64,000 bases of DNA, taken from contig CANKYF010000003.1 in assembly GCA_947487895.1 (NCBI GenBank), positions 124,001 through 188,000 of the forward strand, written 5' to 3'. The DNA comes from an uncultured Flavobacteriaceae bacterium. GTDB lineage: Bacteria; Bacteroidota; Bacteroidia; Flavobacteriales; Flavobacteriaceae. Positions 5,320-25,507 of this stretch are shown here, in pieces; the first letter of the stretch is position 1; every line of letters starts with the position of its first letter. A model generated the notes under the pieces. That model was not told the DNA's origin and searched no databases. It worked only from the letters and a program-made list of their open reading frames with translations. Both the position numbers and the translations under genes were made by a program.

Positions 5320-7074
5320 ATGTACAGAAGTCATAACTGCGGTGAGTTAAGAGCAGAACATATAAATAAAGAAGTAACCCTTGCTGGTTGGGTACAAAAA
5401 TCTAGAGATAAAGGGTTTATTGTTTGGGTAGATTTACGTGATAGATACGGCATTACACAATTGGTGTTTGACGAAGAACGCACCTCTAAAGAGCTTATTG
5501 AAAAAGCTCAAAACTTAGGTAGAGAGTTTGTAATACAAGCCAAAGGCAAAGTAGTTGAACGCGCATCTAAAAATGCAAATATCCCTACTGGTGACATTGA
5601 AATTCTAGTATCAGAATTAAACATTTTGAATGAAGCCATTTTGCCTCCTTTTACTATTGAAGACGACACTGATGGCGGTGAGGAATTACGAATGAAATAC
5701 CGTTATTTAGATATTCGCCGTAACCCAGTAAAAGACAATTTAATATTTAGGCATAAAGTCACTCAAGAAGTTAGAAATTATTTATCTAAAGATGGTTTTA
5801 TTGAAGTTGAAACCCCTTATTTAATTAAATCTACGCCTGAAGGTGCTCGCGATTTCGTAGTACCATCAAGGATGAATGAAGGTGAGTTTTACGCCTTACC
5901 ACAATCGCCACAAACATTTAAGCAACTGCTTATGGTTGGTGGTATGGATAAATACTTTCAAATAGTAAAATGTTTTAGAGACGAAGATTTACGTGCCGAT
6001 AGACAACCAGAATTCACGCAGATAGATTGTGAAATGGCATTTATTGAACAAGAAGATATTTTAAATGCTTTTGAAGGTTTAACACGTCATTTACTAAAAG
6101 AAATCAATGGTGTTGAAGTCGATAAATTTCCAAGAATACAGTATGACGATGCCATGCGTTTATACGGAAACGACAAACCAGATATCCGTTTTGGAATGGA
6201 GTTCGGTGAATTAAATACTGTTGCACAACACAAAGATTTCAACGTTTTTAATAATGCCGAATTAGTTGTCGGTATTGCTGTCCCAGGAGGAAACACCTAT
6301 ACCCGAAAAGAAATAGACAAGCTTATTAGTTGGGTTAAGCGCCCGCAAATTGGAGCACTTGGTATGGTCTATTGTAGATGTAATGAAGATGGAACATTTA
6401 AATCATCTGTAGATAAGTTTTATGATCAAGATGATTTAGCAAAATGGGCAGAAGTTACAGGAGCAAAAGCAGGTGATTTAATTTGTGTACTTTCTGGAGA
6501 CACTAATAAAGTAAGAACTCAATTAAGTGCATTACGTATGGAATTAGCTGAACGCTTAGGTTTACGCAAACCAGATGAGTTTGCACCTCTTTGGGTAATG
6601 GACTTTCCTTTATTAGAATGGGATGAAGAAACAGAGCGCTATCATGCAATGCACCACCCGTTCACATCTCCAAAACCAGGACAAATAGAATTATTAAAAA
6701 CAGACCCAGGCGCTGTTAAAGCCAATGCTTACGATTTAGTATTAAACGGAAACGAAATTGGAGGTGGTTCTATAAGAATTCATGACAAAGAAACTCAAGC
6801 ATTAATGTTTGATTATTTAGGTTTTACAGAAGAAGAAGCTAAAGCGCAATTTGGATTCTTAATGGATGCTTTCCAATATGGAGCACCACCACATGGTGGG
6901 CTTGCATTTGGATTAGATAGATTGGTAGCCATTTTAGGCGGACAAGAAACTATAAGAGATTTTATTGCATTCCCAAAAAATAACTCTGGGCGAGATGTAA
7001 TGATAGATGCACCCGCTCCAATAGATGATGATCAACTAGAAGAACTTAGTTTAAAACTAAACTTAAAATCATAA
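5320..7074 (+). CDS. aspS: Aspartate--tRNA ligase
   Basis: Protein of 584 residues counted from [11 protein letters not shown], the normal length for bacterial AspRS. It charges tRNA-Asp with aspartate. Residues about 1-110 form the OB-fold anticodon-binding domain ([24 protein letters not shown]). The class II catalytic core follows, with motif 2 around [18 protein letters not shown], the bacterial GAD insertion in the middle, and motif 3 [15 protein letters not shown] near the end. The ATG at 5320 is chosen because an upstream in-frame TTG falls inside the preceding terminator and before the promoter element. Single-gene unit with its own terminator. Confidence 0.97.
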
Positions 7075-7296: not shown

Positions 7297-9084
7297 ATGT
7301 CTTTAAAAGTTAAAGGTATATTACGAAAATTTCTCATCTGGAAATACAAACATATTTCCGAACGTCAGTTTGTATATATTTTAAGTGTTTTAGTTGGGTT
7401 TTTGGCAGGAATTGGAACTGTACTTCTTAAAAACCTCACGTATTATATTAGGCATTTTTTCAACCTCTATATTTTTAAAGATTACCAAAGCACACTTTAC
7501 TTTGTGTTACCAATTATTGGACTTTTATTAGTTTATATCATTAAACAAACGTGGTTAAAAAAACATATAGGTCATGGTATTTCAACCACTTTACATGCTA
7601 TTTCTAAACTTAATGGAATCATCCCAAGGTATAATATTTATGCAGGCTTGATTACCGCACCTTTAACAGTTGGTTTTGGTGGATCAGTAGGGTTACAAGG
7701 GCCTGCAGTAAGTATAGGTTCTGCCTTAGGATCTAATACTGCTAGGTTATTTCATATGAATACCAAAACACGCATGTTGCTCATTGGTTGTGCATCAGCA
7801 GGTGCAATGGCATCTATGTTTAAAGCGCCCATTGCCGCCATTGTATTTGCTATTGAAATTTTTAGCTTAGATATCGCATTCACCTCATTAGTGCCTTTAT
7901 TATTAGCATCTGTTTCGGCAGTAGTTACATCTTATTTTTTCTTAGGTACCGATGTGTTATTACGTTTTGAACTCATAGATAAATTTGAAATTAATGACAT
8001 TCTATTTTATATAGTACTTGGGTTAGTTACAGGGCTTGTTTCAGTTTATTTCTCCAAAGTATTTTTTAGTATTAGTAATTTTTTCAAACAATTTGAAAGT
8101 AGAGCAAAACGGTTGCTCATTGGCGGACTAGCAATAGGTACCATGCTATATATAATCCCACCGCTTTATGGTGAGGGTTACGGCATTATGAACAATCTTT
8201 TAAAGGGAGACCATTTAGCAGCTATAGGTACCACTCCTTTTAATTTAGATTTAGAAAATATCTGGATAGTCATTGGACTTCTTTTTGGAATCACTTTATT
8301 TAAAGCCATAGCCATGACAACAACATTTGGAGCTGGAGGCGTTGGTGGTGTTTTCATTCCTACACTAGTAATGGGAAGTGCACTAGGAAATGCTTTTGCT
8401 AAAGTCATCAACAATATTGGTTTTGGGTTTCAGGTATCAGAATCTAATTTCACATTAATAGGTATGACAGGATTAATGGCTGGTGTATTACATGCACCTC
8501 TAACAGCTATTTTCTTGATTGCTGAAATTACTGGCGGTTATGAATTATTTGTACCATTAATGTTAGTCTCAGCCATATCTTTCGCCATTACAAAATACTA
8601 TGTATCACATTCAGTATACACTCTAAAACTAGCTAAACGCGGTGAGTTAATTACACATGATAAAGATCAGAATGTGTTGATGATGCTAGAAATCGATAAA
8701 GTCATTGAAACTAACTTCGTTATTTTAACACCAGAAATGACTCTAGGTGACATTCTACAAAATGCCGTTGCTAAATCCTCTAGAAATCATTTTCCTGTTG
8801 TTAATGAAGACCATGAATTTTTAGGAGTTATAAGATTAGATGACATGAGACATATGATGTTTAACACTGAGCTTTACGATAAAATTACCGCCGAAAGTTT
8901 AATGCATGCTGATGCTGGTATAATTAATTATAATGAAGATTCTATGAATCACATTATGGATAAATTTAAAACATCTGGCGCTTGGAATTTACCTGTTATT
9001 AAAAACGGAAAATACTATGGTTATATTTCAAAATCTAAATTATTAACTGCTTATCGTAGACAATTAATAAACGTAACGCATTAA
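7297..9084 (+). CDS. CLC-family chloride channel/transporter with C-terminal CBS pair
   Basis: Protein of 595 residues: about ten hydrophobic segments (30-440) followed by two CBS domains (about 455-590). CLC landmarks are GHGIST (92-97, at the first selectivity-filter segment), GSVGLQGPAVSIGS (129-142) and GGVGGVFIPTLVMG (GxFxP-type motif). The position of the gating glutamate (GxEGP) holds Gln134, read from codon CAA. In studied CLC proteins replacing this Glu uncouples proton exchange, so this one may act as a passive anion path; that is inference. The CBS pair suggests nucleotide control. The gene overlaps the next by one base (TAATG), implying translational coupling. Confidence 0.93.
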   Translation: MSLKVKGILRKFLIWKYKHISERQFVYILSVLVGFLAGIGTVLLKNLTYYIRHFFNLYIFKDYQSTLYFVLPIIGLLLVYIIKQTWLKKHIGHGISTTLHAISKLNGIIPRYNIYAGLITAPLTVGFGGSVGLQGPAVSIGSALGSNTARLFHMNTKTRMLLIGCASAGAMASMFKAPIAAIVFAIEIFSLDIAFTSLVPLLLASVSAVVTSYFFLGTDVLLRFELIDKFEINDILFYIVLGLVTGLVSVYFSKVFFSISNFFKQFESRAKRLLIGGLAIGTMLYIIPPLYGEGYGIMNNLLKGDHLAAIGTTPFNLDLENIWIVIGLLFGITLFKAIAMTTTFGAGGVGGVFIPTLVMGSALGNAFAKVINNIGFGFQVSESNFTLIGMTGLMAGVLHAPLTAIFLIAEITGGYELFVPLMLVSAISFAITKYYVSHSVYTLKLAKRGELITHDKDQNVLMMLEIDKVIETNFVILTPEMTLGDILQNAVAKSSRNHFPVVNEDHEFLGVIRLDDMRHMMFNTELYDKITAESLMHADAGIINYNEDSMNHIMDKFKTSGAWNLPVIKNGKYYGYISKSKLLTAYRRQLINVTH

Positions 9085-15940: not shown

Positions 15941-16018
15941 TTAACATTAAAGTAACATAAAAATTATAAACGATTAACAATTACATAACATTGAACCCCT
16001 TATTATGTCGGTACTTTG
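15941..16018 (+). promoter_or_regulatory. Pho-box-like promoter before the CarboxypepD_reg gene
   Basis: Hexamers at an exact 11-bp spacing: TTAACA 15941, GTAACA 15952, ATTATA 15963 (weak), TTAACA 15974, ATAACA 15985. TTG at 15991 and TACTTTG at 16012-16018 form the -33 and -7 elements. The last hexamer starts 30 bp before TTTG. Direct repeats with an 11-bp period are the hallmark of PhoB/PhoP boxes (Bacillus PhoP: TTAACA-like hexamers with 5-bp spacers). That a PhoB-type protein binds here is inference. Confidence 0.7.
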
Positions 16019-16041
16019 CACAACGCTTTTAAAGACTCAAA

Positions 16042-16425
16042 ATGAAATATTTAGCAACTTTATTTTTTATTGTTTTCACATCATTTGCCTTTGCTCAAGA
16101 CACAGGTTTAATTGTTGGTAAAGTTTTAGATAAAGAATTAAATAACACACCATTAGCATTCGCTAATGTATCTATTAAAGGGTCTAACTTAAGTGTAACT
16201 TCAGACTTCTCTGGAATGTTTCTTTTAGAAAATCTTAAAGACGGGAAATATACATTGGTTTGTAATTTTCCTGGGTATGAAACTAAAGAGATTGACGTAA
16301 CGATCACTTCAAACGAGCCTGCAGAAGTTGAACTATCATTAGGCTCATTTACATTACCTGCTATTGAAGTTGCTTCAGCTGAAAACAATAGCAAAGCCAT
16401 TAAAGCTTCTGCAAGCCTAAAGTAA
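16042..16425 (+). CDS. Stand-alone CarboxypepD_reg-like domain protein, exported
   Basis: Protein of 127 residues: signal peptide (MKYLATLFFIVFTSFAFAQ) followed by one carboxypeptidase-regulatory-like beta-sandwich (GLIVGKVLDKELNNTPLAFANVSIKG...GYETKEIDVTI). It closely resembles residues 1-110 of the TonB receptor encoded 239 bases downstream (QDTG.(V/I)VGK..DK..NN.PL.FANV.IKG), but stops where the plug and barrel would begin. It has its own promoter of the same type as the receptor, so it looks like a functional small protein from a duplication. A receptor remnant is the alternative. Confidence 0.75.
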   Translation: MKYLATLFFIVFTSFAFAQDTGLIVGKVLDKELNNTPLAFANVSIKGSNLSVTSDFSGMFLLENLKDGKYTLVCNFPGYETKEIDVTITSNEPAEVELSLGSFTLPAIEVASAENNSKAIKASASLK

Positions 16426-16563
16426 AACTTACTTTACTACTAATTAGAGACTTATATATAAGTAATATTAATCATATAGAAATCTATATAATTAGTTGCT
16501 ATACACTATTTAGACCTAATGTTAATTTATTGTTTTTAACGCCCGCATAAAACACCTTATTTC

Positions 16564-16641
16564 ATAACATTAAAATAACATACATATCACGTTTCCTTAA
16601 ACTCATAATAACGTGTTCTTCATGTTCTATAGCGTTCTTTG
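16564..16641 (+). promoter_or_regulatory. Pho-box-like promoter before the TonB receptor
   Basis: Hexamers in 11-bp register: ATAACA 16564, ATAACA 16575, ATCACG 16586, TTAAAC 16597, ATAACG 16608, then TTCTTTG at 16635-16641. The last hexamer starts 30 bp before TTTG. No TTG -33 is present, as expected of an activator-dependent promoter. The -7 region GT(A/T)CTTTGCACAA is shared with the promoter at 16012. Confidence 0.68.
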
Positions 16642-16664
16642 CACAAAAATTAAATATCTTAAAA

Positions 16665-19445
16665 ATGATAAAAAATTTATCACTGTTATTATTATTAATA
16701 ACTTCGATATTTTCTTACTCTCAAGACACTGGATCTGTAGTAGGAAAGATTACCGACAAAGATTATAACAATGAGCCTTTACCTTTTGCTAATGTTTTAA
16801 TTAAAGGCACTACAACTGGAACAACATCAGACTTTGATGGGTTATATTCTCTAGATGGCCTATCTCCTGGTAACTATACACTTGTTTTTAGTTTTGTTGG
16901 TTATGAAACCACCGAAATTAACGCAACTGTTGCTGCTGGAAAAGTTACAGAAATTAACGTTCCTTTAGGGGCTAGCGCTGCTGCTCTTGATGAAATTATC
17001 ATTGAAGCACCAAAGGCAAGAGGAGAAAGCGAAACTGCATTACTTTTAGCGCAAAAGAAAGCTGTTGAAATAAAAACAGCAATAGGTTCTCAAGAGCTTA
17101 GTAAAAAAGCTGTTTCTGATGCTGCAGGTGCAACTTTAAAAGTAACAGGTGTTAATAAAAAAGAAGGTTCTAGTAAAATTTATGTTAGAGGTCTAGGTGA
17201 TAGATACAATAGTACTACACTAAATGGATTACCGCTTCCTTCTAATGATCCAAGAAACAAAAATATCGACTTATCTTTATTTAGCTCAGACATTATACAA
17301 AGTGTTGGTATAGGGAAAGCTTTTTCTTCTTACATGTCGTCTGATGTTGCTGGTGCAAATATTGATATTGTTAGTAAAGAAACATCTAAAAAATCACTTT
17401 TTAAAGTTGGTATTTCAGCTGGAGGAAATACTATAACAACTTTTAATGATTTTAAAGAAATGGATGGCGCTAATTGGTTTGGAGTTAACTCTAATACAAA
17501 ACACAAAATTAGAGATTTAGGTGTTTATAACTTTGAAAACAGTTATTCTCCTAATGCTACAACCGCGAATCCTAATTTGGGACTTTCTCTTAACTATGGT
17601 AAAAAAATCACATTAGGTGATGAAAGCAATATTAGTGTTTTCTTAGTTGGATCATTCAATAACAAATATACATTTCAAGAAGGTAGATCTGATGCCATTG
17701 TTGACATTAACGATAATGGAGACCTAAATGTTGGTACTATTTTCGACACAGAGACTTATTCCTACAATGCATCAAAAATGTTAATGGGTAATGTTGTTTA
17801 CAAAATTAACAGTAACCATAAATTAAGTTATAACCATTTATTTGTTCATTCAAACTCTCAAAAAATTCAAGATTTTGTAGGTACCACAAATGATATAGGT
17901 AGAGACTCTGATGATAATAGATTAGTAAATGTATTATTACAAACTGAAATACAAAATAGATTATTTGTTAATCAATTAATGTCTACTAATAAATTTGGTG
18001 AATCTATTGATGTAAATGCAGCTGTTGCTTACAATGCTATCTATAATGATGAACCAGACAGAAGAAAAAACACATTCATAATTAACAACGATACAAACAC
18101 TACCAGAATATCTCAAAATGCAGTAAGAGACAACAGTAGGTTCTATGGAAATCTATTTGAAAACAGTGTTGCTGGAAACTTAAACGTTATTAAATATTTA
18201 GGTGAGCGTTTTGAAAATAACGGAAAAATCACTCTAGGTTACAACGGAAGTATTACCGATAGACAATTTGATGGTATCTATTTTGATCATAATTTCGCAA
18301 ACCCTAGAGCTGCTTTTGTTGATGTTAATAATCTAGATGCAACATTCAATCAAAATAACTTAAATAGTGGACTTTTTGGAATTGAAACTTCTAGAGGTAG
18401 AAATAGTAACGATGCCGAAACTTATTTACCTCAACTATATGATGCAGAAAAAACTATTCATTCTGCTTATATTGATGCTGTATATAAATTCAATGAAAAA
18501 TTTACTGCCAATGTTGGTTTAAGAGCAGAGGATGTTAAAATGGATGTTACATGGAATACTAACATTAGTTTCCCTGGCTTTTCTAACAACAGTCAAATTG
18601 CTTTAGATAAACAATACGTTTTACCTACTTTTAATTTAAAGTATGCTCTTACTGAAAAATCTAACTTAAGAGCTTCTGGAAGTCTTACTTATACTTATCC
18701 GCAGTTTAAGGAAATAGCTCCTTTTACTTATGAAGGTATTAACTTTCAAGAAAGTGGTAACCCAGCATTACAACCTTCAGACAACTATAACGCAGAGTTA
18801 AAATATGAAATATTCCCTAATAACAGTGAATTAGTATCCATTGGTGTATTTGGTAAATTAATAGAAAACTCAATAAACCGTTTAGAAAGAAACTCAGCTG
18901 TAGAAAGAGACTTTACTTTTGACAACTCTGGAGATGCCACTGTTTTTGGTGCAGAAATAGAAGGTAGATTAAATATTTTATCTAAAGAATCTGAAGATGA
19001 AGAAACATCTAAAACACTTGCTTTAGGAGGAAATATAACCTTAATGAAAACAAAACTAGAGTATAACACTGCGAATACATTATTTAATTATACTGGTGAT
19101 AGCTCAGAATTAGAAGGAGCTTCTCCATTTACAATAAACGCAGATTTATCTTATAGATTTAAAGTAAATGAAAAAGAAACTATATCTACATTAGTATTTA
19201 ACTACCAAAGTGATAAAGTTTATAGTATTGGTACAAACTTTCAAGAAAATATTGTTGAGAAAGGAGTTCCTTTATTAGACTTTGTATTTAGCCATAAGTT
19301 TAATAAAAACTTAAGTGTTAAGTTTAATGCTAAAAACTTATTAAATCCAAGTTTTGAAAGGTATAGAGATATCCCAGAAAAATTAACTATGAACTCTTAT
19401 AAGAGAGGTACATCTATATCCGTTGGTGTAAACTATAGCTTATAG
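16665..19445 (+). CDS. TonB-dependent outer membrane receptor with N-terminal CarboxypepD_reg domain
   Basis: Protein of 926 residues: signal peptide (to about 19, ..SIFSYSQ), CarboxypepD_reg domain (about 20-110), plug (about 125-240, with GSSKIYVRGLGDRYNSTTLNG) and a 22-strand-type barrel to the end (final residues SISVGVNYSL, ending in hydrophobic residue plus Leu). It imports a substrate across the outer membrane using TonB energy. Its Pho-box-like promoter and its neighbours (surface lipoprotein, PiT) suggest a phosphorus-containing substrate; this is inference. The SusD partner typical of sugar systems is absent. A 23-bp hairpin terminator follows. Confidence 0.92.
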   Translation: MIKNLSLLLLLITSIFSYSQDTGSVVGKITDKDYNNEPLPFANVLIKGTTTGTTSDFDGLYSLDGLSPGNYTLVFSFVGYETTEINATVAAGKVTEINVPLGASAAALDEIIIEAPKARGESETALLLAQKKAVEIKTAIGSQELSKKAVSDAAGATLKVTGVNKKEGSSKIYVRGLGDRYNSTTLNGLPLPSNDPRNKNIDLSLFSSDIIQSVGIGKAFSSYMSSDVAGANIDIVSKETSKKSLFKVGISAGGNTITTFNDFKEMDGANWFGVNSNTKHKIRDLGVYNFENSYSPNATTANPNLGLSLNYGKKITLGDESNISVFLVGSFNNKYTFQEGRSDAIVDINDNGDLNVGTIFDTETYSYNASKMLMGNVVYKINSNHKLSYNHLFVHSNSQKIQDFVGTTNDIGRDSDDNRLVNVLLQTEIQNRLFVNQLMSTNKFGESIDVNAAVAYNAIYNDEPDRRKNTFIINNDTNTTRISQNAVRDNSRFYGNLFENSVAGNLNVIKYLGERFENNGKITLGYNGSITDRQFDGIYFDHNFANPRAAFVDVNNLDATFNQNNLNSGLFGIETSRGRNSNDAETYLPQLYDAEKTIHSAYIDAVYKFNEKFTANVGLRAEDVKMDVTWNTNISFPGFSNNSQIALDKQYVLPTFNLKYALTEKSNLRASGSLTYTYPQFKEIAPFTYEGINFQESGNPALQPSDNYNAELKYEIFPNNSELVSIGVFGKLIENSINRLERNSAVERDFTFDNSGDATVFGAEIEGRLNILSKESEDEETSKTLALGGNITLMKTKLEYNTANTLFNYTGDSSELEGASPFTINADLSYRFKVNEKETISTLVFNYQSDKVYSIGTNFQENIVEKGVPLLDFVFSHKFNKNLSVKFNAKNLLNPSFERYRDIPEKLTMNSYKRGTSISVGVNYSL

Positions 19446-19463
19446 AATAGATTAAAATATTCA

Positions 19464-19512
19464 TTTATAAACAAAAGCCCTTAAAATTATTTTAAGGGCT
19501 TTTGTTTATAAA
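19464..19512. terminator. 23-bp perfect hairpin after the TonB receptor
   Basis: Arms 19464-19486 and 19490-19512 are perfect complements, with core AAAAGCCCTTAAAA and a 3-base loop; the right arm contains a TTTT run. It separates the receptor from the lipoprotein gene, which has its own promoter. Confidence 0.85.
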
Positions 19513-19562
19513 AGTTTCATTATTTCTATAGAGAAACATTAAATTAACATTCACCTAAATTC

Positions 19563-19618
19563 TTAACATTATACTAATACAGGCATAAAAGTGTAATCAT
19601 ACTACTGCCGTTAATTTG
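19563..19618 (+). promoter_or_regulatory. Pho-box-like promoter before the beta-helix lipoprotein
   Basis: Hexamers in 11-bp register: TTAACA 19563, CTAATA 19574, ATAAAA 19585, then TAATTTG at 19612-19618. The last hexamer starts 30 bp before TTTG. A further TTAACA at 19544, preceded by GAAACA at 19533, is 11-bp spaced internally but out of phase with the proximal set. No TTG -33. Confidence 0.6.
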
Positions 19619-19650
19619 CATCATAATTATAAAAAACTAAAAAAATCAAA

Positions 19651-20853
19651 ATGAAAACTTTAAAGAACTTTCTATTAGCTGCAACAGTAGTTTCAATTTT
19701 CGCATGTTCATCTGATGATGACAACAGAACTATAGACCCAGGTAATGGTGGTGGAAATGGCATTACTGGTACTGAATTAACTGGAGAACTTACAACAGAT
19801 GGTACATTAGAAGCTAGTAAAGAATATACTTTAACAGGATCTTTTACTGTAAAAAGCGGTACTACTTTAACTATTGAACCAGGAACAGTAATTAAAGCTA
19901 AAAGCGGTAGAACAGATGTGTTCTTAGCTGTAGAAAGAGGTGCTAAATTAATTGCAAAAGGTACTGCCGCTAACCCTATTAAATTTACTTCTGATGCTGC
20001 TTCACCAAAAGCTGGAGACTGGGGAGGAATTGTTTTAGCTGGTAAAGCAAGAAGTAATAAAGGTACAGATGTTCAATCTGAGGTTGCTGGTGTACTTTAC
20101 GGTGGAACTGAAGATGGAGATAGTTCAGGTGAATTAAGCTATATTATTGCTGAATACACTGGTGCTAAGATTAACGGTGAGCAAGAATTCAACGGAATTT
20201 CTTTCTTTGGTGTTGGTAGCGGTACTGTTGTAAATAACATTGTTGTTAGCAATGGTAATGATGATGGTATTGAATTCTTTGGTGGTTCAGTTAACGTAAC
20301 TAATGTTTACTGTGCTAACATTGCTGATGATATGTTTGATTGGACTGGTGGTTACACTGGTACTGTAACAAATGCGTTTGGTGTTCGTAACGATGGTTTC
20401 GATGCTGCTACAGATGACCCAAGAGGTATTGAAGGAGACAGTAACAGTTCAGATCCTACTGCTGCTCCTATTTCTACTCCAACGTTAAAAAATGTTACTA
20501 TCTTAAACCTTAACCCTGATGTTTCTCTTAAAGCTGGTGCTGAAATTAGAAGAGGTACTGAAGCTGTTATTACTAACATTTTATTTGCTGCTTACGGAAA
20601 TGCTTCTTTTGGAAACAGAATAGATACTAAAGATGATAAAGGAAACGGAATCTTAACTATTTCTAGTGCTTCTTCTCAAGGTAATGTAGGTGATGATAAA
20701 GTTGGTGGAGAGATTACTGGTTCTGTAACAGAGATTACAGACGGAATTACTGTTTCTGCTGATAACACAGTTGAAACTAAAGCTGGTGTTGGTGCTGACT
20801 TATCTGCATTCGATTGGGCTAACCAAAGCTTTGTAGTTACAATGTTAAACTAA
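19651..20853 (+). CDS. Surface lipoprotein with predicted right-handed beta-helix
   Basis: Protein of 400 residues. Lipoprotein signal MKTLKNFLLAATVVSIFAC with Cys19, followed by the Asp-rich SSDDD common in surface-exposed flavobacterial lipoproteins and a Gly-rich linker. The body reads like a beta-helix: TLTIEPGTVIKAKSG, GAKLIAKGTAANPIKFTSD, GDWGGIVLAG, NGNDDGIEFFGGSVNVTN, ADDMFDWTGGYTG. The product is very rich in Gly, Asn, Asp and Thr and lacks Cys-His sites. It directly follows the TonB receptor and shares the promoter type, so it may be the receptor's surface-binding partner in place of a SusD. Specific function unknown. Confidence 0.8.
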   Translation: MKTLKNFLLAATVVSIFACSSDDDNRTIDPGNGGGNGITGTELTGELTTDGTLEASKEYTLTGSFTVKSGTTLTIEPGTVIKAKSGRTDVFLAVERGAKLIAKGTAANPIKFTSDAASPKAGDWGGIVLAGKARSNKGTDVQSEVAGVLYGGTEDGDSSGELSYIIAEYTGAKINGEQEFNGISFFGVGSGTVVNNIVVSNGNDDGIEFFGGSVNVTNVYCANIADDMFDWTGGYTGTVTNAFGVRNDGFDAATDDPRGIEGDSNSSDPTAAPISTPTLKNVTILNLNPDVSLKAGAEIRRGTEAVITNILFAAYGNASFGNRIDTKDDKGNGILTISSASSQGNVGDDKVGGEITGSVTEITDGITVSADNTVETKAGVGADLSAFDWANQSFVVTMLN

Positions 20854-20888
20854 GCTTGTTTATAAAATATTATCTTAGAGATAAAGAG

Positions 20889-20916
20889 AAAGCCTCCCAA
20901 ATGGGGGGCTTTTTTA
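20889..20916 (+). terminator. Terminator after the beta-helix lipoprotein
   Basis: AAAGCCTCCC (20889-20898), loop AAAT, GGGGGGCTTT (20903-20912), then T residues. Confidence 0.85.
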
Positions 20917-21001
20917 TTAACCTATATTTAATATCAACTTAATCCCCTACATTAATTGAAGGTTTATTTTCACTTTATTATAATCTTAAACATCAATTAA
21001 A

Positions 21002-22522
21002 ATGAAAAAACTTATTTTGATATCCTTTTTTATTTTAGGAATCACTCAATCTTTTGCGCAAAATTACAAATGGCATAAGTTCTATTCAGTAATTAATGGA
21101 GCTACAATTACACAACAATTTGCTGAAAACAATTGTGGGCAAACCTTTTCTAACTCTCAATTAAGAGGAAGAAATTATGTAAATATTCAAATAGAGACTT
21201 CTTTAGGTCATAATAAATTCTATTTATTAAATTTTGGGGAAGGTTTAAAGTACTATTATTTAAAGTCTTCTAGTACCAATGCTCATAATGACGAAGATTA
21301 TACATTAAGCCTCCCTTATACTATAACTTCAATCTGTACTCCAATAGATAGTGATGGTGATAACATACCAAATTTTATAGATAATTGTCCTGATACTCCA
21401 AATACTAATCAGATTGATACAGACGGAGATGGTATTGGAGACGTTTGTGATAATAACTTAACTCAAGCGATGCCTTATAGAAGTCATACATTTTACGCAC
21501 GACTCAACAATAATACCATATTTCAAAGTACGACATTAAATAATTGTGGAAATTCATTCTCAACATCTCAATTAAGTGAAAGGTATTATGTTAACATACA
21601 AACTCAAACACAATTAATACCTAATAGGTTTTATTATTTAAATTTTGGTAGGGGTTATGGATATTATTATTTAAAATATTCTAGTTCTGGTGAACATAAC
21701 GATGAAGACTACAGAATTAATTACCACAATGATATAGTTCAACCTTGCCCTGATACTGATAACGATGGTATTTTAGATGCTAATGATAATTGCCCAAACC
21801 AAGCCGGTACTTCTCAGCATAACGGATGTCCTGATACAGATGGTGATGGAATACCTGATATTGATGATGATTGCCCTAACGAACATGGTCACCCTGAAAA
21901 TGACGGATGCCCTTTACCAGATTTTTGGGTTAAAAGTTTTAGTATTACACGAGAAGATTTAAGCGATGAATTTGCAACTCAATATCTACATAAATTCTGC
22001 GCAACAATTGCAAATAGTGGTGGTGCTGGTGGTAGTATAGGTAAAATAGATATCATTGCTACAACAAGAGGTGAATCAAGTAACCCAGGAACAATAAACA
22101 CTATTATTTCAACTGGTCATAATAAATATATTAATGCAGGAAACACCATTGATATCTGTTATGAACATTTATCTAATTCATATGATCCAGTTTTTGGTGA
22201 TCGCAGGCTATCAGCCTATAATTATATATGGGTTATAATTGAAGAAGGTGATCAAGAATCTGTTACAAATAATAATGATAAATTCTTCTCTAATTCAGTT
22301 ACAACAGCAAAAAGAACATCTGCTAAATCATCCAGAGACCCGTTGCTAGATGATAAAAAACTTAAAATGTATGACTATTATATATATGATTTATCAGGGA
22401 AATTAATAAAATCAGGAAAAACTAATTCAATACAACAAGAGAATAATATTATCAATGAACTCCCTACCAAAGGGCCTTATATTATCAAATCTCCTAATAA
22501 AACCAGAAAAGTCGTTAAGTAA
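21002..22522 (+). CDS. Secreted protein with thrombospondin type-3 repeats and two copies of an unrecognised ~82-residue domain
   Basis: Protein of 506 residues. Signal peptide 1-20 (ITQSFAQ). Two copies of an unfamiliar domain at about 25-105 and 162-242 share NNCG.(T/S)FS.SQL..R.YVNIQ, N(K/R)FY.LNFG.G and HNDEDY. Each copy is followed by calcium-binding thrombospondin-3 repeats (DSDGDNIPNFIDNCPDT; DTDGDGIGDVCD; DTDNDGILDANDNCP; DTDGDGIPDIDDDCP). Next comes a CARDB-like beta-sandwich (about 309-430). The end (DYYIYDLSGKLIKSGKT...GPYIIKSPNKTRKVVK) resembles a type A sorting tail of the type IX secretion system. Likely a cell-surface or secreted binding/adhesion protein; ligand unknown. Confidence 0.82.
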   Translation: MKKLILISFFILGITQSFAQNYKWHKFYSVINGATITQQFAENNCGQTFSNSQLRGRNYVNIQIETSLGHNKFYLLNFGEGLKYYYLKSSSTNAHNDEDYTLSLPYTITSICTPIDSDGDNIPNFIDNCPDTPNTNQIDTDGDGIGDVCDNNLTQAMPYRSHTFYARLNNNTIFQSTTLNNCGNSFSTSQLSERYYVNIQTQTQLIPNRFYYLNFGRGYGYYYLKYSSSGEHNDEDYRINYHNDIVQPCPDTDNDGILDANDNCPNQAGTSQHNGCPDTDGDGIPDIDDDCPNEHGHPENDGCPLPDFWVKSFSITREDLSDEFATQYLHKFCATIANSGGAGGSIGKIDIIATTRGESSNPGTINTIISTGHNKYINAGNTIDICYEHLSNSYDPVFGDRRLSAYNYIWVIIEEGDQESVTNNNDKFFSNSVTTAKRTSAKSSRDPLLDDKKLKMYDYYIYDLSGKLIKSGKTNSIQQENNIINELPTKGPYIIKSPNKTRKVVK

Positions 22523-22540
22523 GTAAAACTTAAGCATCAA

Positions 22541-22566
22541 AAAAGCCTCCCAAATGGGAGGCTTTT
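22541..22566. terminator. Bidirectional terminator
   Basis: Perfect stem AAAAGCCTCCC (22541-22551) with GGGAGGCTTTT (22556-22566), loop AAAT, between two convergent genes. Confidence 0.88.
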
Positions 22567-22590
22567 CATATTAGAAAAAACTATAATCAT

Positions 22591-22941
22591 TTATAAACTG
22601 GAGCTCTTATCTTTTTGTGTAACTCTAGTAATCTTAGAATCTACATAGCTTACTTGCTTTACGTCTCCATCAACCCAGAAAGTCCATTTACCAACTTTTT
22701 TACCATTTTCATATTTACCAACAGCTACTTTGTTTCCTATAGCATCAAAACTGGTCCAAGTACCATGTAATTTTCCATCTTTATTAAATGTTCCTTTTTG
22801 TTGTATGTTTCCATCAGCATAAAAATAAGTAGACTCTACTAAATCTCCTTTCTGTACATGCTTCACTTTTACATTTGTATCTTGTGCATAAACTTGTGTT
22901 CCTATAAAAACTACAACTAATATTAATATATATTTTCTCAT
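22591..22941 (-). CDS. Small exported MORN-like repeat protein
   Basis: Protein of 116 residues from ATG 22941: MRKYILILVVVFIGTQVYAQ is a signal peptide, so the longer version from an upstream TTG is rejected. The mature part carries MORN-like repeats typical of Bacteroidetes toxin-antitoxin-like/MORN variants: YADGNIQQKGTFNKDGKLHGTW, DAIGNKVAVGKYENGKKVGKWTFW, DGDVKQVSYVDSKI. Its function is not known; such proteins are periplasmic or surface-associated. It shares an intergenic region with the divergent PiT gene. Confidence 0.8.
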   Translation of the reverse strand: MRKYILILVVVFIGTQVYAQDTNVKVKHVQKGDLVESTYFYADGNIQQKGTFNKDGKLHGTWTSFDAIGNKVAVGKYENGKKVGKWTFWVDGDVKQVSYVDSKITRVTQKDKSSSL

Positions 22942-22973
22942 AACGTATGGGGTTTTATTTAACAATTACTTTA

Positions 22974-23003
22974 CAAATATACATTTATAATTTACATTTG
23001 CAA
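22974..23003 (-). promoter_or_regulatory. Promoter of the MORN-like gene (TTG-N19-TATATTTG)
   Basis: On the minus strand, TTG (23003-23001), 19-bp spacer, TATATTTG (22981-22974); the ATG is 32 bases downstream. A good match to the Bacteroidetes consensus. Confidence 0.7.
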
Positions 23004-23029
23004 AACATTTACATAACATTAAATTAACA
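23002..23029 (+). promoter_or_regulatory. Distal Pho-box-like repeat block
   Basis: AAAACA 23002, ATAACA 23013, TTAACA 23024, spaced 11 bp. It is read in the direction of the PiT gene but lies about 190 bp from its ATG, and it abuts the -33 of the divergent MORN-like gene. It may serve either gene or neither. Confidence 0.45.
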
Positions 23030-23145
23030 TTAAACGTGTAATTATTTGATTTATAGATATTTAAATATTGTAAAATATTTTATTTTTCGATTAAAAGCAT
23101 ATTTACTGAGACTAACTATATCTATCAAAAAACAAGCCTTAGAAC

Positions 23146-23190
23146 ATAACATTCCGTTAACATTAGGTTTAATAAAAAACAAGACATTTG
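23146..23190 (+). promoter_or_regulatory. Pho-box-like promoter before the PiT gene
   Basis: ATAACA 23146 and TTAACA 23157 in 11-bp spacing, then GACATTTG (23183-23190) as the -7 element. TTAACA starts 30 bp before TTTG, the same geometry as the promoters at 16012, 16635 and 19612. The ATG follows at 23216. Confidence 0.65.
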
Positions 23191-23215: not shown

Positions 23216-25507
23216 ATGGATAACCTTTATACTTTTATGATTATTGCGCTTGCTGTTTTAGCAATAGCAGATTTAGTAGTTGGTGTAAGTAATGATGCTG
23301 TAAATTTCCTTAATTCAGCCATAGGTTCTAAAGCCGTTTCTTTTAAAACCTTAATGATTGTTGCCAGTGTTGGTGTTGCTTTTGGCGCTCTATCATCTAG
23401 TGGTATGATGGAAATTGCACGTAAAGGTATTTTTGTTCCAGGTGAATTTGTCTTCGATGAAATCATGATCATTTTTATGGCAGTAATGATTACAGATATA
23501 CTGCTTCTTGATTTCTTTAATACTTTAGGGCTACCTACGTCTACAACCGTTTCAATTGTTTTTGAACTTTTGGGCGCATCTGTTTGTATTGCTTTAATTA
23601 AAATTTCAGCCGATAATAATCAATCTTTTTTAGACCTAGGCAACTATATTAACAACGAAAAAGCCATTGAAATCATATTAGGTATTCTGCTCTCAGTGGT
23701 AGTCGCCTTTTCTGTAGGCGCCATCATACAGTATGTATCTCGATTATTGTTATCATTTAACTTTAATGATAAACCTAAGTTTTACGGAGCTATTTTTAGC
23801 GGATTTGCAGTAACATCTATTATGTATTTTATCCTTATTAAAGGTATTAAAAATGCTAGCTTTATGAATGCTGATATTAAAAGTATGATATCCAGCAATA
23901 CTGAAGCAACGCTTGCTATTGGTTTTGTAATCTTTACACTTATATCCTTCTTACTAATAACACTTCTAAAAACTAATATTTACAGAATCATTATTATAGT
24001 TGGAACTTTTGCTTTAGCTGTAGCCTTTGCAGGAAATGACCTTGTAAACTTTATAGGTCCAACAACAGGAGCTTATCAAGCCTATATAGATTTTGGAAAT
24101 CCTGAGGTAAATACTCTGGGATTATCTGCTACAGAATTTACTATGGAAAGTCTGGGTAAAAAAATATACACCCCCACCATTATACTTTTAATTGCTGGTT
24201 TGGTAATGGTATTAACGTTATGGTTTTCCAGTAAAGCTAAAGCGGTAGTAAAAACATCGGTAGACTTATCGCGTCAAGACGATGTAAAAGAACGTTTTGA
24301 GCCTAACTTTCTATCTAGAAGCATTGTAAGAATGACTATTGCTGCTTCAGAAAGTATTAATAGTATATTGCCTAACTCAGCAAAACGTGTTATTGATAAA
24401 CAATTTGAAAAGCCTGCATTATCTGCTGCAATTAAAAAAGAAGACATGCCTGCTTTTGATATGGTAAGAGCCGCTGTAAATTTAATGGTTGCTAGTGTAC
24501 TTATCTCTATTGCTACATCTATGAAACTACCACTTTCTACAACCTATGTTACTTTTATGGTTGCCATGGGTACGTCTTTAGCAGACAGAGCTTGGGGTAG
24601 TGAAAGTGCTGTTTACAGAGTAGCAGGTGTACTTAACGTTATTGGTGGTTGGTTTTTAACTGCTTTAAGTGCTTTTGTTGCAGCTTCTTTAATGGCTTTA
24701 ATTTTATACTACGGAAGAGGCTACGCCTTAGTTGCTTTAATAACTTTCGCCATTTTTGTACTATTTAGAAACTACTTGAAACACAGAAAAGAATCTAGAA
24801 TACTTAAAGAGGAAGATACTTTGCAAAAAGCTGAAAGTAGCTCAACCCAAGGTGTTATTGTAGAAAGTGCAAGTAATATTGCCAATGTAGTAAAAAGAGG
24901 AAACAGAATTTATACCAATGCTGTAAACGGGCTTGCCACGCATAATCTAAAAATGCTAAAAAAGAATAAGTCGCAAGTAGAAAGTTTAGCCGATGAGATT
25001 GATGAGTTAAAAGATAATATTTTCTATTTCATTAAAAATCTAGACGAGCCTAGTGTTAATGCTAGTAATTTCTACTTAAGCATTTTAAGGCATTTACAAG
25101 ACATGGCACAATCTTTAGCTTATATTTCTAATTCTAGCTACAAACACGTAAATAACAACCATAAGAAGTTGAAATTTAGCCAAATTAAAGAGCTTAAAGA
25201 AATTGATGAAGTGTTTGAAGGCCTATTCAAAGAAACCAAAACTGCTTTCACTTCCGGGTCTTTCAATCAAATAGGTGCTGTTTTAGAAAGAAAGCATGAT
25301 GTGATTAATATGCTTACTGAAAAAATTCAGAAACAAGTTGAGCGTACCAGAACTGAAGAATCCAGTCCTAAAAACACTACTTTATACTTTGGTATTTTAC
25401 TTGAAACTAAAGATTTATTAATTGCAACAATGAGTCTTCTTGAAGAATACTTTAATTCTCATGATGATTCTGTAGAGCCTGCAAAGGTTATTAATGAAGA
25501 AGAGTAA
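23216..25507 (+). CDS. PiT-family inorganic phosphate transporter fused to a PhoU-like domain
   Basis: Protein of 763 residues. The N-terminal two thirds is a PiT permease with inverted signature repeats GVSNDAVNFLNSAIGSKA (about 23-40) and FAGNDLVNFIGPTTGAYQAY (about 268-287), each inside hydrophobic segments. It should carry phosphate across the inner membrane with Na+ or H+. From about 545 the protein is soluble and helical (QGVIVESASNIANVVKRG...ADEIDELKDNIFYFIKNL), resembling PhoU, a regulator of Pi uptake. So transporter and regulator are one chain. The promoter carries a Pho-box-like block. A 15-bp hairpin terminator follows. Confidence 0.9.
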   Translation: MDNLYTFMIIALAVLAIADLVVGVSNDAVNFLNSAIGSKAVSFKTLMIVASVGVAFGALSSSGMMEIARKGIFVPGEFVFDEIMIIFMAVMITDILLLDFFNTLGLPTSTTVSIVFELLGASVCIALIKISADNNQSFLDLGNYINNEKAIEIILGILLSVVVAFSVGAIIQYVSRLLLSFNFNDKPKFYGAIFSGFAVTSIMYFILIKGIKNASFMNADIKSMISSNTEATLAIGFVIFTLISFLLITLLKTNIYRIIIIVGTFALAVAFAGNDLVNFIGPTTGAYQAYIDFGNPEVNTLGLSATEFTMESLGKKIYTPTIILLIAGLVMVLTLWFSSKAKAVVKTSVDLSRQDDVKERFEPNFLSRSIVRMTIAASESINSILPNSAKRVIDKQFEKPALSAAIKKEDMPAFDMVRAAVNLMVASVLISIATSMKLPLSTTYVTFMVAMGTSLADRAWGSESAVYRVAGVLNVIGGWFLTALSAFVAASLMALILYYGRGYALVALITFAIFVLFRNYLKHRKESRILKEEDTLQKAESSSTQGVIVESASNIANVVKRGNRIYTNAVNGLATHNLKMLKKNKSQVESLADEIDELKDNIFYFIKNLDEPSVNASNFYLSILRHLQDMAQSLAYISNSSYKHVNNNHKKLKFSQIKELKEIDEVFEGLFKETKTAFTSGSFNQIGAVLERKHDVINMLTEKIQKQVERTRTEESSPKNTTLYFGILLETKDLLIATMSLLEEYFNSHDDSVEPAKVINEEE

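Follow-up and report, generated by a model that had tools for sequence, protein, structure and literature searches.

We analyzed a 64,000-nucleotide stretch of DNA from an uncultured Flavobacteriaceae bacterium (hereafter, the window), which carries genes for a small CarboxypepD_reg-domain protein, a TonB-dependent receptor, a lipoprotein, a small MORN protein and a PiT-type phosphate transporter, together with arrays of short direct repeats upstream of these genes. The features, in coordinates of the window, are the following.

15941–15990, + strand: array upstream of the CarboxypepD gene, with units at 15941, 15952, 15974 and 15985 plus a weak one at 15963, that is, at −74, −63, −52 (weak), −41 and −30 relative to TTTG
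16015–16018, + strand: TTTG of the putative −7 element of the CarboxypepD promoter
16042–16425, + strand: small CarboxypepD_reg-domain protein, 127 aa
16564–16613, + strand: array upstream of the TonB receptor, with units at 16564, 16575 and 16608 (ATAACG) and weaker units at 16586 (weak) and 16597 (TTAAAC)
16638–16641, + strand: TTTG of the putative −7 element of the TonB receptor promoter
16665–19445, + strand: TonB-dependent receptor, 926 aa
19533–19590, + strand: degenerate array upstream of the lipoprotein, the weakest of the four, with in-register units at 19563 (TTAACA), 19574 (CTAATA) and 19585 (ATAAAA) and a pair farther upstream, at 19533/19544, that is offset from the register by 3 bp
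19615–19618, + strand: TTTG of the putative −7 element of the lipoprotein promoter
19651–20853, + strand: lipoprotein, 400 aa
22591–22941, − strand: MORN gene, small protein of 116 aa divergent from PiT, with a sub-threshold MORN_2 match (obtained for a range that started 6 bases before the ATG)
22974–22981, − strand: putative −7 element of the MORN gene, TATATTTG
22991–23029, + strand: fifth array, over the −33 region of the MORN gene and reversed relative to it, with units at 22991 (TTTACA), 23002 (AAAACA), 23013 (ATAACA) and 23024 (TTAACA)
23146–23162, + strand: two-unit box upstream of PiT, ATAACATTCCGTTAACA, at −41 and −30
23187–23190, + strand: TTTG of the putative −7 element of the PiT promoter
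23216–25507, + strand: PiT-type phosphate transporter with a PHO4 domain, 763 aa

The name "beta-helix" given to the lipoprotein in the first-pass annotation is a label only of that annotation, and no Pfam or NCBIfam family matched the protein at E ≤ 0.001. The transporter had been called PiT-PhoU; the phosphate carrier part of this name is borne out by the PHO4 domain, whereas Pfam found no PhoU match in the protein. A thrombospondin type 3 repeat protein (21002–22522) lies between the lipoprotein and the MORN gene and is the best match of a single ORF across the 80 loci of relatives described below. The stand-alone CarboxypepD protein and the N-terminal domain of the adjacent TonB receptor (16665–16973) are 50% identical over 88 aa and their promoters have the array layout in common, perhaps reflecting a partial duplication.

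Promoters of Bacteroidota are of the −33/−7 type. It had been proposed that the promoters of the CarboxypepD, TonB receptor, lipoprotein and phosphate carrier genes share an 11-bp repeat box, the last unit of which starts 30 bp before the TTTG of the −7 element. All four coordinate pairs proved correct, with the TTTG at 16015, 16638, 19615 and 23187 preceded by ATAACA (15985), ATAACG (16608), ATAAAA (19585) and TTAACA (23157), respectively; the sequence and spacing of the units are observed directly. The box itself holds for the CarboxypepD, TonB receptor and PiT promoters, whereas the lipoprotein promoter is a weak case, with one TAAC in register, at 19563, and a score of 10.8 bits for the site at 19533. 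As had also been noted, the −33 TTG is missing from 3 of the 4 promoters, a TTG 24 bp before TTTG being present in only 1.

The register was assessed by counting TAAC cores at −74, −63, −52, −41 and −30 from 991 TTTG in the window, 430 of them on the + strand and 561 on the − strand, namely all those with more than 100 bases of their own strand before them. At least 2 TAAC were in register at only 3 of these TTTG, namely, 16015 (4 cores), 16638 (3) and 23187 (2), and the 4 promoters together had 10 TAAC at the claimed register vs 0 or 1 at shifts of 1–5 bp. When up to 3 mismatches were allowed, the loose pattern TTAACA-N5-TTAACA was not enriched in the window (277 matches vs 260.5 expected, with 15 of 100 shuffles reaching at least the observed number), indicating that what carries the signal is the precise spacing together with the register to the −7 element. 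A position weight matrix (PWM) built solely from PiT promoters of other genomes ranked highest the sites at 16564 (21.3 bits), 23146 and 23013 (20.4 bits each), 15941 (16.5), 12284 (14.9, outside the locus), 23002 (14.8) and 15974 (14.3); the maxima of 20 Markov shuffles of the window averaged 14.0 bits, with a highest value of 19.4, and only the sites at 16564, 23146 and 23013 scored above all 20. Across the source genome, 2 scans with the strict motif gave a modest excess over the reversed control (31 vs 18 and 391 vs 343), with further matches near tsf, a porphyranase gene, the RNase R gene and a CAP-domain protein gene, which we do not claim as boxes. None of the 3 further matches to the lipoprotein in this genome (contigs C20, C22 and C1) had an intergenic array in the stretches examined.

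Conservation of the arrays was observed directly in relatives. The 80 best of 432 PiT relatives, all from named genomes, amount to about 29 effectively independent loci at 80% identity. A box search blind to TTTG gave a distance of precisely 30 bp between the second repeat and TTTG in 71 of these 80 loci, with no other distance occurring in more than 4. The boxes had 0 mismatches in 23 loci, 1 in 32, 2 in 17 and 3 in 8. A second placement with up to 4 mismatches retained 78 of the 80 loci, 75 of them with TTTG, a count that leans to the 30-bp register by virtue of its bonus for TTT[G/A] at +30; a TTG was present 24 bp before TTTG in 17 of these 78 sites. In many close relatives (L051–L055 and others), the PiT box is flanked by a GAAC … GTTC inverted repeat lying outside the direct repeats.

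The cluster recurs in relatives in the order HD-domain gene (− strand), CarboxypepD, TonB receptor, lipoprotein, MORN (− strand) and PiT, with best-hit ORFs over the 80 loci numbering 80 for TonB (two in some loci), 80 for PiT, 69 for MORN, 66 for the lipoprotein, 62 for HD, 35 for OmpA, 26 for CarboxypepD and 11 for PhoB. Because the PiT-trained PWM under-scores the receptor and lipoprotein promoters, in-register TAAC counts were used for these genes instead. Spacing and register were assessed for genes with an upstream gap of at least 100 bp by our ORF calls, which kept 56 of 80 PiT, 59 of 80 TonB receptor, 29 of 66 lipoprotein and 25 of 26 CarboxypepD genes. In all four classes, the spacing between TAAC cores peaked at 11 bp (87 pairs for PiT, 60 for TonB, 25 for CarboxypepD and 24 for the lipoprotein); 414 other genes displayed no peak, with 8 pairs at 11 bp and 12 at 8 bp. 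At least 2 TAAC in register with TTTG were found in 52 of 56 PiT, 46 of 59 TonB receptor, 23 of 29 lipoprotein and 17 of 25 CarboxypepD promoters, and in 1 of 570 control genes. Shifting the register by 2–5 bp left 0–5 promoters per class in all four classes, and when it was moved by −1, 8 of 25 CarboxypepD and 5 of 56 PiT promoters remained. OmpA genes from the same loci had a box of at least 10 bits in 0 of 26 cases.

Taken together, 84 sites from TonB receptor, lipoprotein and CarboxypepD promoters give a composite with six units from −74 to −19, followed by TTTG: tTAACATT (−74), cTAACaTT (−63), ATtAC (−52), TTAAT (−41), gTAACa (−30) and TTtACA (−19). The sites had been selected for TAAC at −74 or −63, and the patterns at −52, −41 and −19, which are not TAAC, were unselected; the C of TAAC is conserved at 94–98% in the strong units, partly owing to this selection. 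In the window, the CarboxypepD and TonB receptor promoters match the composite from −74 to −30, their −19 units being unrecognizable, and the PiT promoter has the −41 and −30 units only.

The fifth array (22991–23029), which was absent from the first-pass annotation, covers the promoter of the divergent MORN gene in reversed orientation. In relatives, the distance between the reversed box and TAnnTTTG is 30 bp in 49 of 69 cases and 29 bp in 6 more. Of these 55 sites, once aligned, 43 have a TTG 23 bp before TAnnTTTG; the corresponding distance in the window is 22 bp. Thus, the array covers a promoter that seemingly has both elements, from which we infer that it might occlude this promoter and repress the gene when PhoB is active. 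Another reading is that it would be a distal activating site for PiT, because it is in forward orientation to PiT, about 190–225 bp before the PiT start. The broader possibility that one regulator acts in two orientations, with forward arrays replacing the −33 element and activating, and the reversed array over the complete −33/−7 promoter of the MORN gene repressing, is a tentative idea that we consider somewhat doubtful; if true, array orientation would set the sign of the phosphate response.

The source genome (4.39 Mb, 99.87% complete) encodes three PF00486 proteins. One is PhoB-like (G000:C7:92946-93623), with a PhoR/PnpS-like kinase gene behind it. TIGR02154 was the best of 99 NCBIfam families matched by this protein, although both partners score below the equivalog cut-offs (222 vs 296.2 bits for TIGR02154 and 212 vs 270 for NF053854 in the case of the PhoB-like protein; 246 vs 400 and 233 vs 334 bits in the case of the PhoR-like protein), and a search against the PDB returned only general OmpR-family relatives. 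The second (contig C12) is RprY-like and has a receiver domain, with NF051850 as its best family (283 bits vs a cut-off of 370), and in the third Pfam found no receiver domain. Of 100 genomes searched, including the source genome, 97 had a best match to the PhoB-like protein with E ≤ 1e-84. Among the 30 best-scoring loci of these 100 genomes, again including the source genome, a TAAC pair with 11-bp spacing was found within 250 bp upstream of phoB on the opposite strand in 29, and on the phoB strand in 0; 27 matches to TAnnTTT[G/A] were found on the phoB strand, at a distance of 37 or 38 bp from where the box ends. This array may serve the divergent gene, since it is on the opposite strand, or phoB, or both. 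The gene divergent from phoB in the source genome and at L284, L285 and L287 encodes a small secretion-tail protein.

Linkage of phoBR to the genes of the cluster was likewise observed, with gene identities established by BLASTP. At L280, phoBR is divergent from a TonB receptor–lipoprotein pair with an array in between; at L281, phoBR, the TonB receptor, the lipoprotein, a porin-like gene and PiT form one cluster; at L282, phoBR adjoins a lipoprotein–TonB receptor pair; and in Aquimarina (L108), PiT, phoB and phoR are contiguous.

Other phosphate genes gave a patchier picture. PhoU, PstS, PhoX, PF00245 alkaline phosphatase and Porin_O_P were not found by Pfam in the source genome. The 11-bp TAAC pair was present upstream of pstS in 3 of 10 cases in the family and in none of the 30 pstS loci that scored best in a sample of the phylum, and upstream of PhoX in 0 of 7 relatives, the start codons of two of the ORFs examined (L220 and L221) being doubtful; a looser site of 14.8 bits, including the −7 element, was present at one PhoX locus (L226). 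A low-scoring PF05787 set had the pair in 3 of 22 cases and is hence not a clean negative control. Among the weak PF05787 proteins, L247 and L248, and more loosely L246, have TAAC repeats upstream and may be further phosphate-regulated genes.

Co-occurrence of the PiT box with PhoB was followed in 12 hand-picked genomes in which PhoB was absent (3) or of low identity (9; 57–68%), a set that left out some other genomes with 67–68% PhoB identity. A PiT box of at least 12 bits was present in 2 of the 13 PiT loci of these genomes, namely the second copy in G046 and the one in G069, a genome 82% complete in which no PhoB orthologue was detected; the strong box was missing from the other 11. Nor was a PhoB orthologue detected in G044 (99% complete) and G076 (86%), where the PiT box was missing, and the box was missing from 8 of the 9 genomes with low-identity PhoB. 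As boxless PiT genes occur both where PhoB is absent and where it is of low identity, the comparison does not separate the two groups cleanly and its outcome is mixed.

Published work on other Bacteroidota bears on the cluster in several ways. In the PhoBR operon/PUSIV of Flavobacterium johnsoniae, a TonB receptor and an IPR011050 lipoprotein are clustered with phoBR (PMC8115612), a likeness to our loci at the level of gene type. There, phosphate depletion raises the TonB receptor Fjoh_0545 (fold change 8.02 as printed), the IPR011050 lipoprotein Fjoh_0546 (9.91) and PhoB, Fjoh_0544 (3.06), with PhoR at 0.76 (adjusted p 0.056); the words "promoter", "Pho-box" and "PhoU" do not occur in the main text of that paper, and no binding site is given there (PMC8115612). 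In Riemerella anatipestifer, DAP-seq of PhoP yielded a motif in which TTTAACA is best conserved, with a site upstream of phoPR, and the motif was likened to that of ArcA; in the text available to us, its targets are not phosphate genes, "direct repeat" does not occur, and neither a −7 spacing nor a PiT link is given (PMC9603813). The TTTAACA core is common to this motif and ours, and both organisms belong to the order Flavobacteriales, orthology of PhoP to the PhoB-like protein being assumed from neither point (PMC9603813). Deletion of phoB in B. fragilis leaves only trace pstC expression, with no motif given in the part of that paper available to us (PMC3547664), and Pho boxes have been predicted in plcP clusters (PMC4796936). 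Among the matches listed, we recognized no paper describing a WTAACAT 11-bp box of Flavobacteriaceae.

We consider it probable, at roughly 0.85, that the repeats are a Pho box of Flavobacteriaceae, that is, tandem WTAACAT half-sites bound by the PhoB-like regulator. Box conservation, linkage to phoBR and the arrays at phoB loci make such a box well supported by comparison. Several results speak against it: the pair is missing at PhoX and infrequent at pstS, most PiT loci of the genomes with absent or low-identity PhoB have no strong box, the PhoB-like and PhoR-like proteins fall short of the equivalog cut-offs, the arrays beside phoB may belong to the divergent gene, the Riemerella targets in the text available to us are not phosphate genes, and the genome-wide excess of the strict motif is modest. 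The Bacteroidetes Pho box suggested in the first-pass annotation thus gains from the constant distance in 71 of 80 PiT loci, the cassette adjoining phoBR and the arrays at 29 of 30 phoB loci, as well as from the reported low-phosphate induction in F. johnsoniae (PMC8115612, for the parts available to us). The elements are 11-bp tandem direct repeats that keep a fixed distance to the putative −7 element and occupy the position of the upstream element, and they precede genes of phosphate acquisition (PiT, and the TonB receptor and lipoprotein classes, whose role is taken from the literature). Under the Pho-box interpretation, WTAACAT half-sites, one per 11 bp, would be bound by the PhoB-like OmpR-family response regulator, which, upon phosphate starvation, would be phosphorylated and fill the array. 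The half-site 30 bp before TTTG, overlapping the place of the −33 TTG, would then recruit sigma to the presumed −7 element. The phosphate carrier would be switched on through one half-site pair (−41/−30), and the TonB receptor, lipoprotein and CarboxypepD genes through up to three pairs (−74 to −19), with a corresponding number of dimers.

Direct repeats with a period near 11 bp are frequent binding sites of OmpR-family proteins, and the arrays could in principle be bound by another member of the family, the link to phosphate being incidental. The RprY-like protein is the most plausible candidate, since no other PF00486 protein found in the source genome, apart from the PhoB-like one, has a receiver domain. 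However, its gene (8088–8792, + strand, of its own stretch of that genome) has no 11-bp TAAC pair just upstream, the pairs there being at 6465 and 10812 (− strand) only, whereas nearly all phoB loci examined do carry such a pair and the cluster adjoins phoBR in some relatives; we regard binding by this protein as improbable. Slightly less credible still is an element intrinsic to the promoter, such as a UP-like element or bent A+T-rich DNA, acting with no dedicated activator: the repeats are A+T-rich, their period is near the helix repeat and they are fixed relative to TTTG, but the C of TAAC in the strong units is nearly invariant (in part through site selection), the layout is nearly absent from the control genes, the OmpA genes of the same loci lack the box, and at MORN and phoB the motif is found in reversed orientation as well. 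Coincidence in A+T-rich intergenic DNA would accord with the loose TTAACA pattern being unenriched in the window, but we give it next to no weight in view of the exact register kept across relatives, assessed with shifted and reversed controls.

The Pho box of E. coli PhoB consists of two TGTCA-type repeats with 11-bp spacing, which replace the −35 element, the half-site being CTGTCAT. The Flavobacteriaceae box resembles it in its 11-bp direct repeats, a half-site ending in CAT, its position before phosphate uptake genes and its fixed distance to the downstream promoter element with the upstream element overlapped. It differs in the half-site, WTAACAT rather than CTGTCAT, in its coupling to the TTTG of the Bacteroidota −7 element and in its arrays of up to six units, which are reversed at MORN and phoB. 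The PhoP box of Bacillus has TTAACA-like repeats with spacers of about 5 bp, so that hexamer and spacing look nearly identical, although the phylum and promoter type are different. Very probably, then, the repeats are a Pho box of the type present in E. coli and Bacillus, distinguished by a half-site sequence of their own, by composite arrays that reach six units and by the constant register to TTTG. Flavobacteriaceae are common in the sea and in soil. Of 120 genomes of the family that were searched, only 10 had a PstS match above 100 bits, so that pst alone is not enough to infer how these bacteria control phosphate. If the Pho box keeps a fixed register to the −7 element, it would allow sequence-based prediction of phosphate regulons in the family, and it offers a test of how an OmpR-family activator works with the −33/−7 promoters of Bacteroidota.

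Two further observations concern the neighborhoods of these genes. A protein of 102–114 aa, mainly a type IX secretion tail, is encoded divergently from phoB (in the source genome, L047:8409-8753, contig C7) or in the same cluster (L280 and L282); Pfam recognizes Por_Secre_tail in L047, L284, L285, L287 and L280, and BLASTP links these proteins. The order of the receptor and lipoprotein genes also varies: in the window, the TonB receptor precedes the lipoprotein (400 aa), and in Seonamhaeicola algicola (L050), a lipoprotein of 446 aa precedes a TonB receptor of low identity to that of the window, with the same flanking genes, so that the pair may have been swapped as a cassette (16042–20853 in the window).
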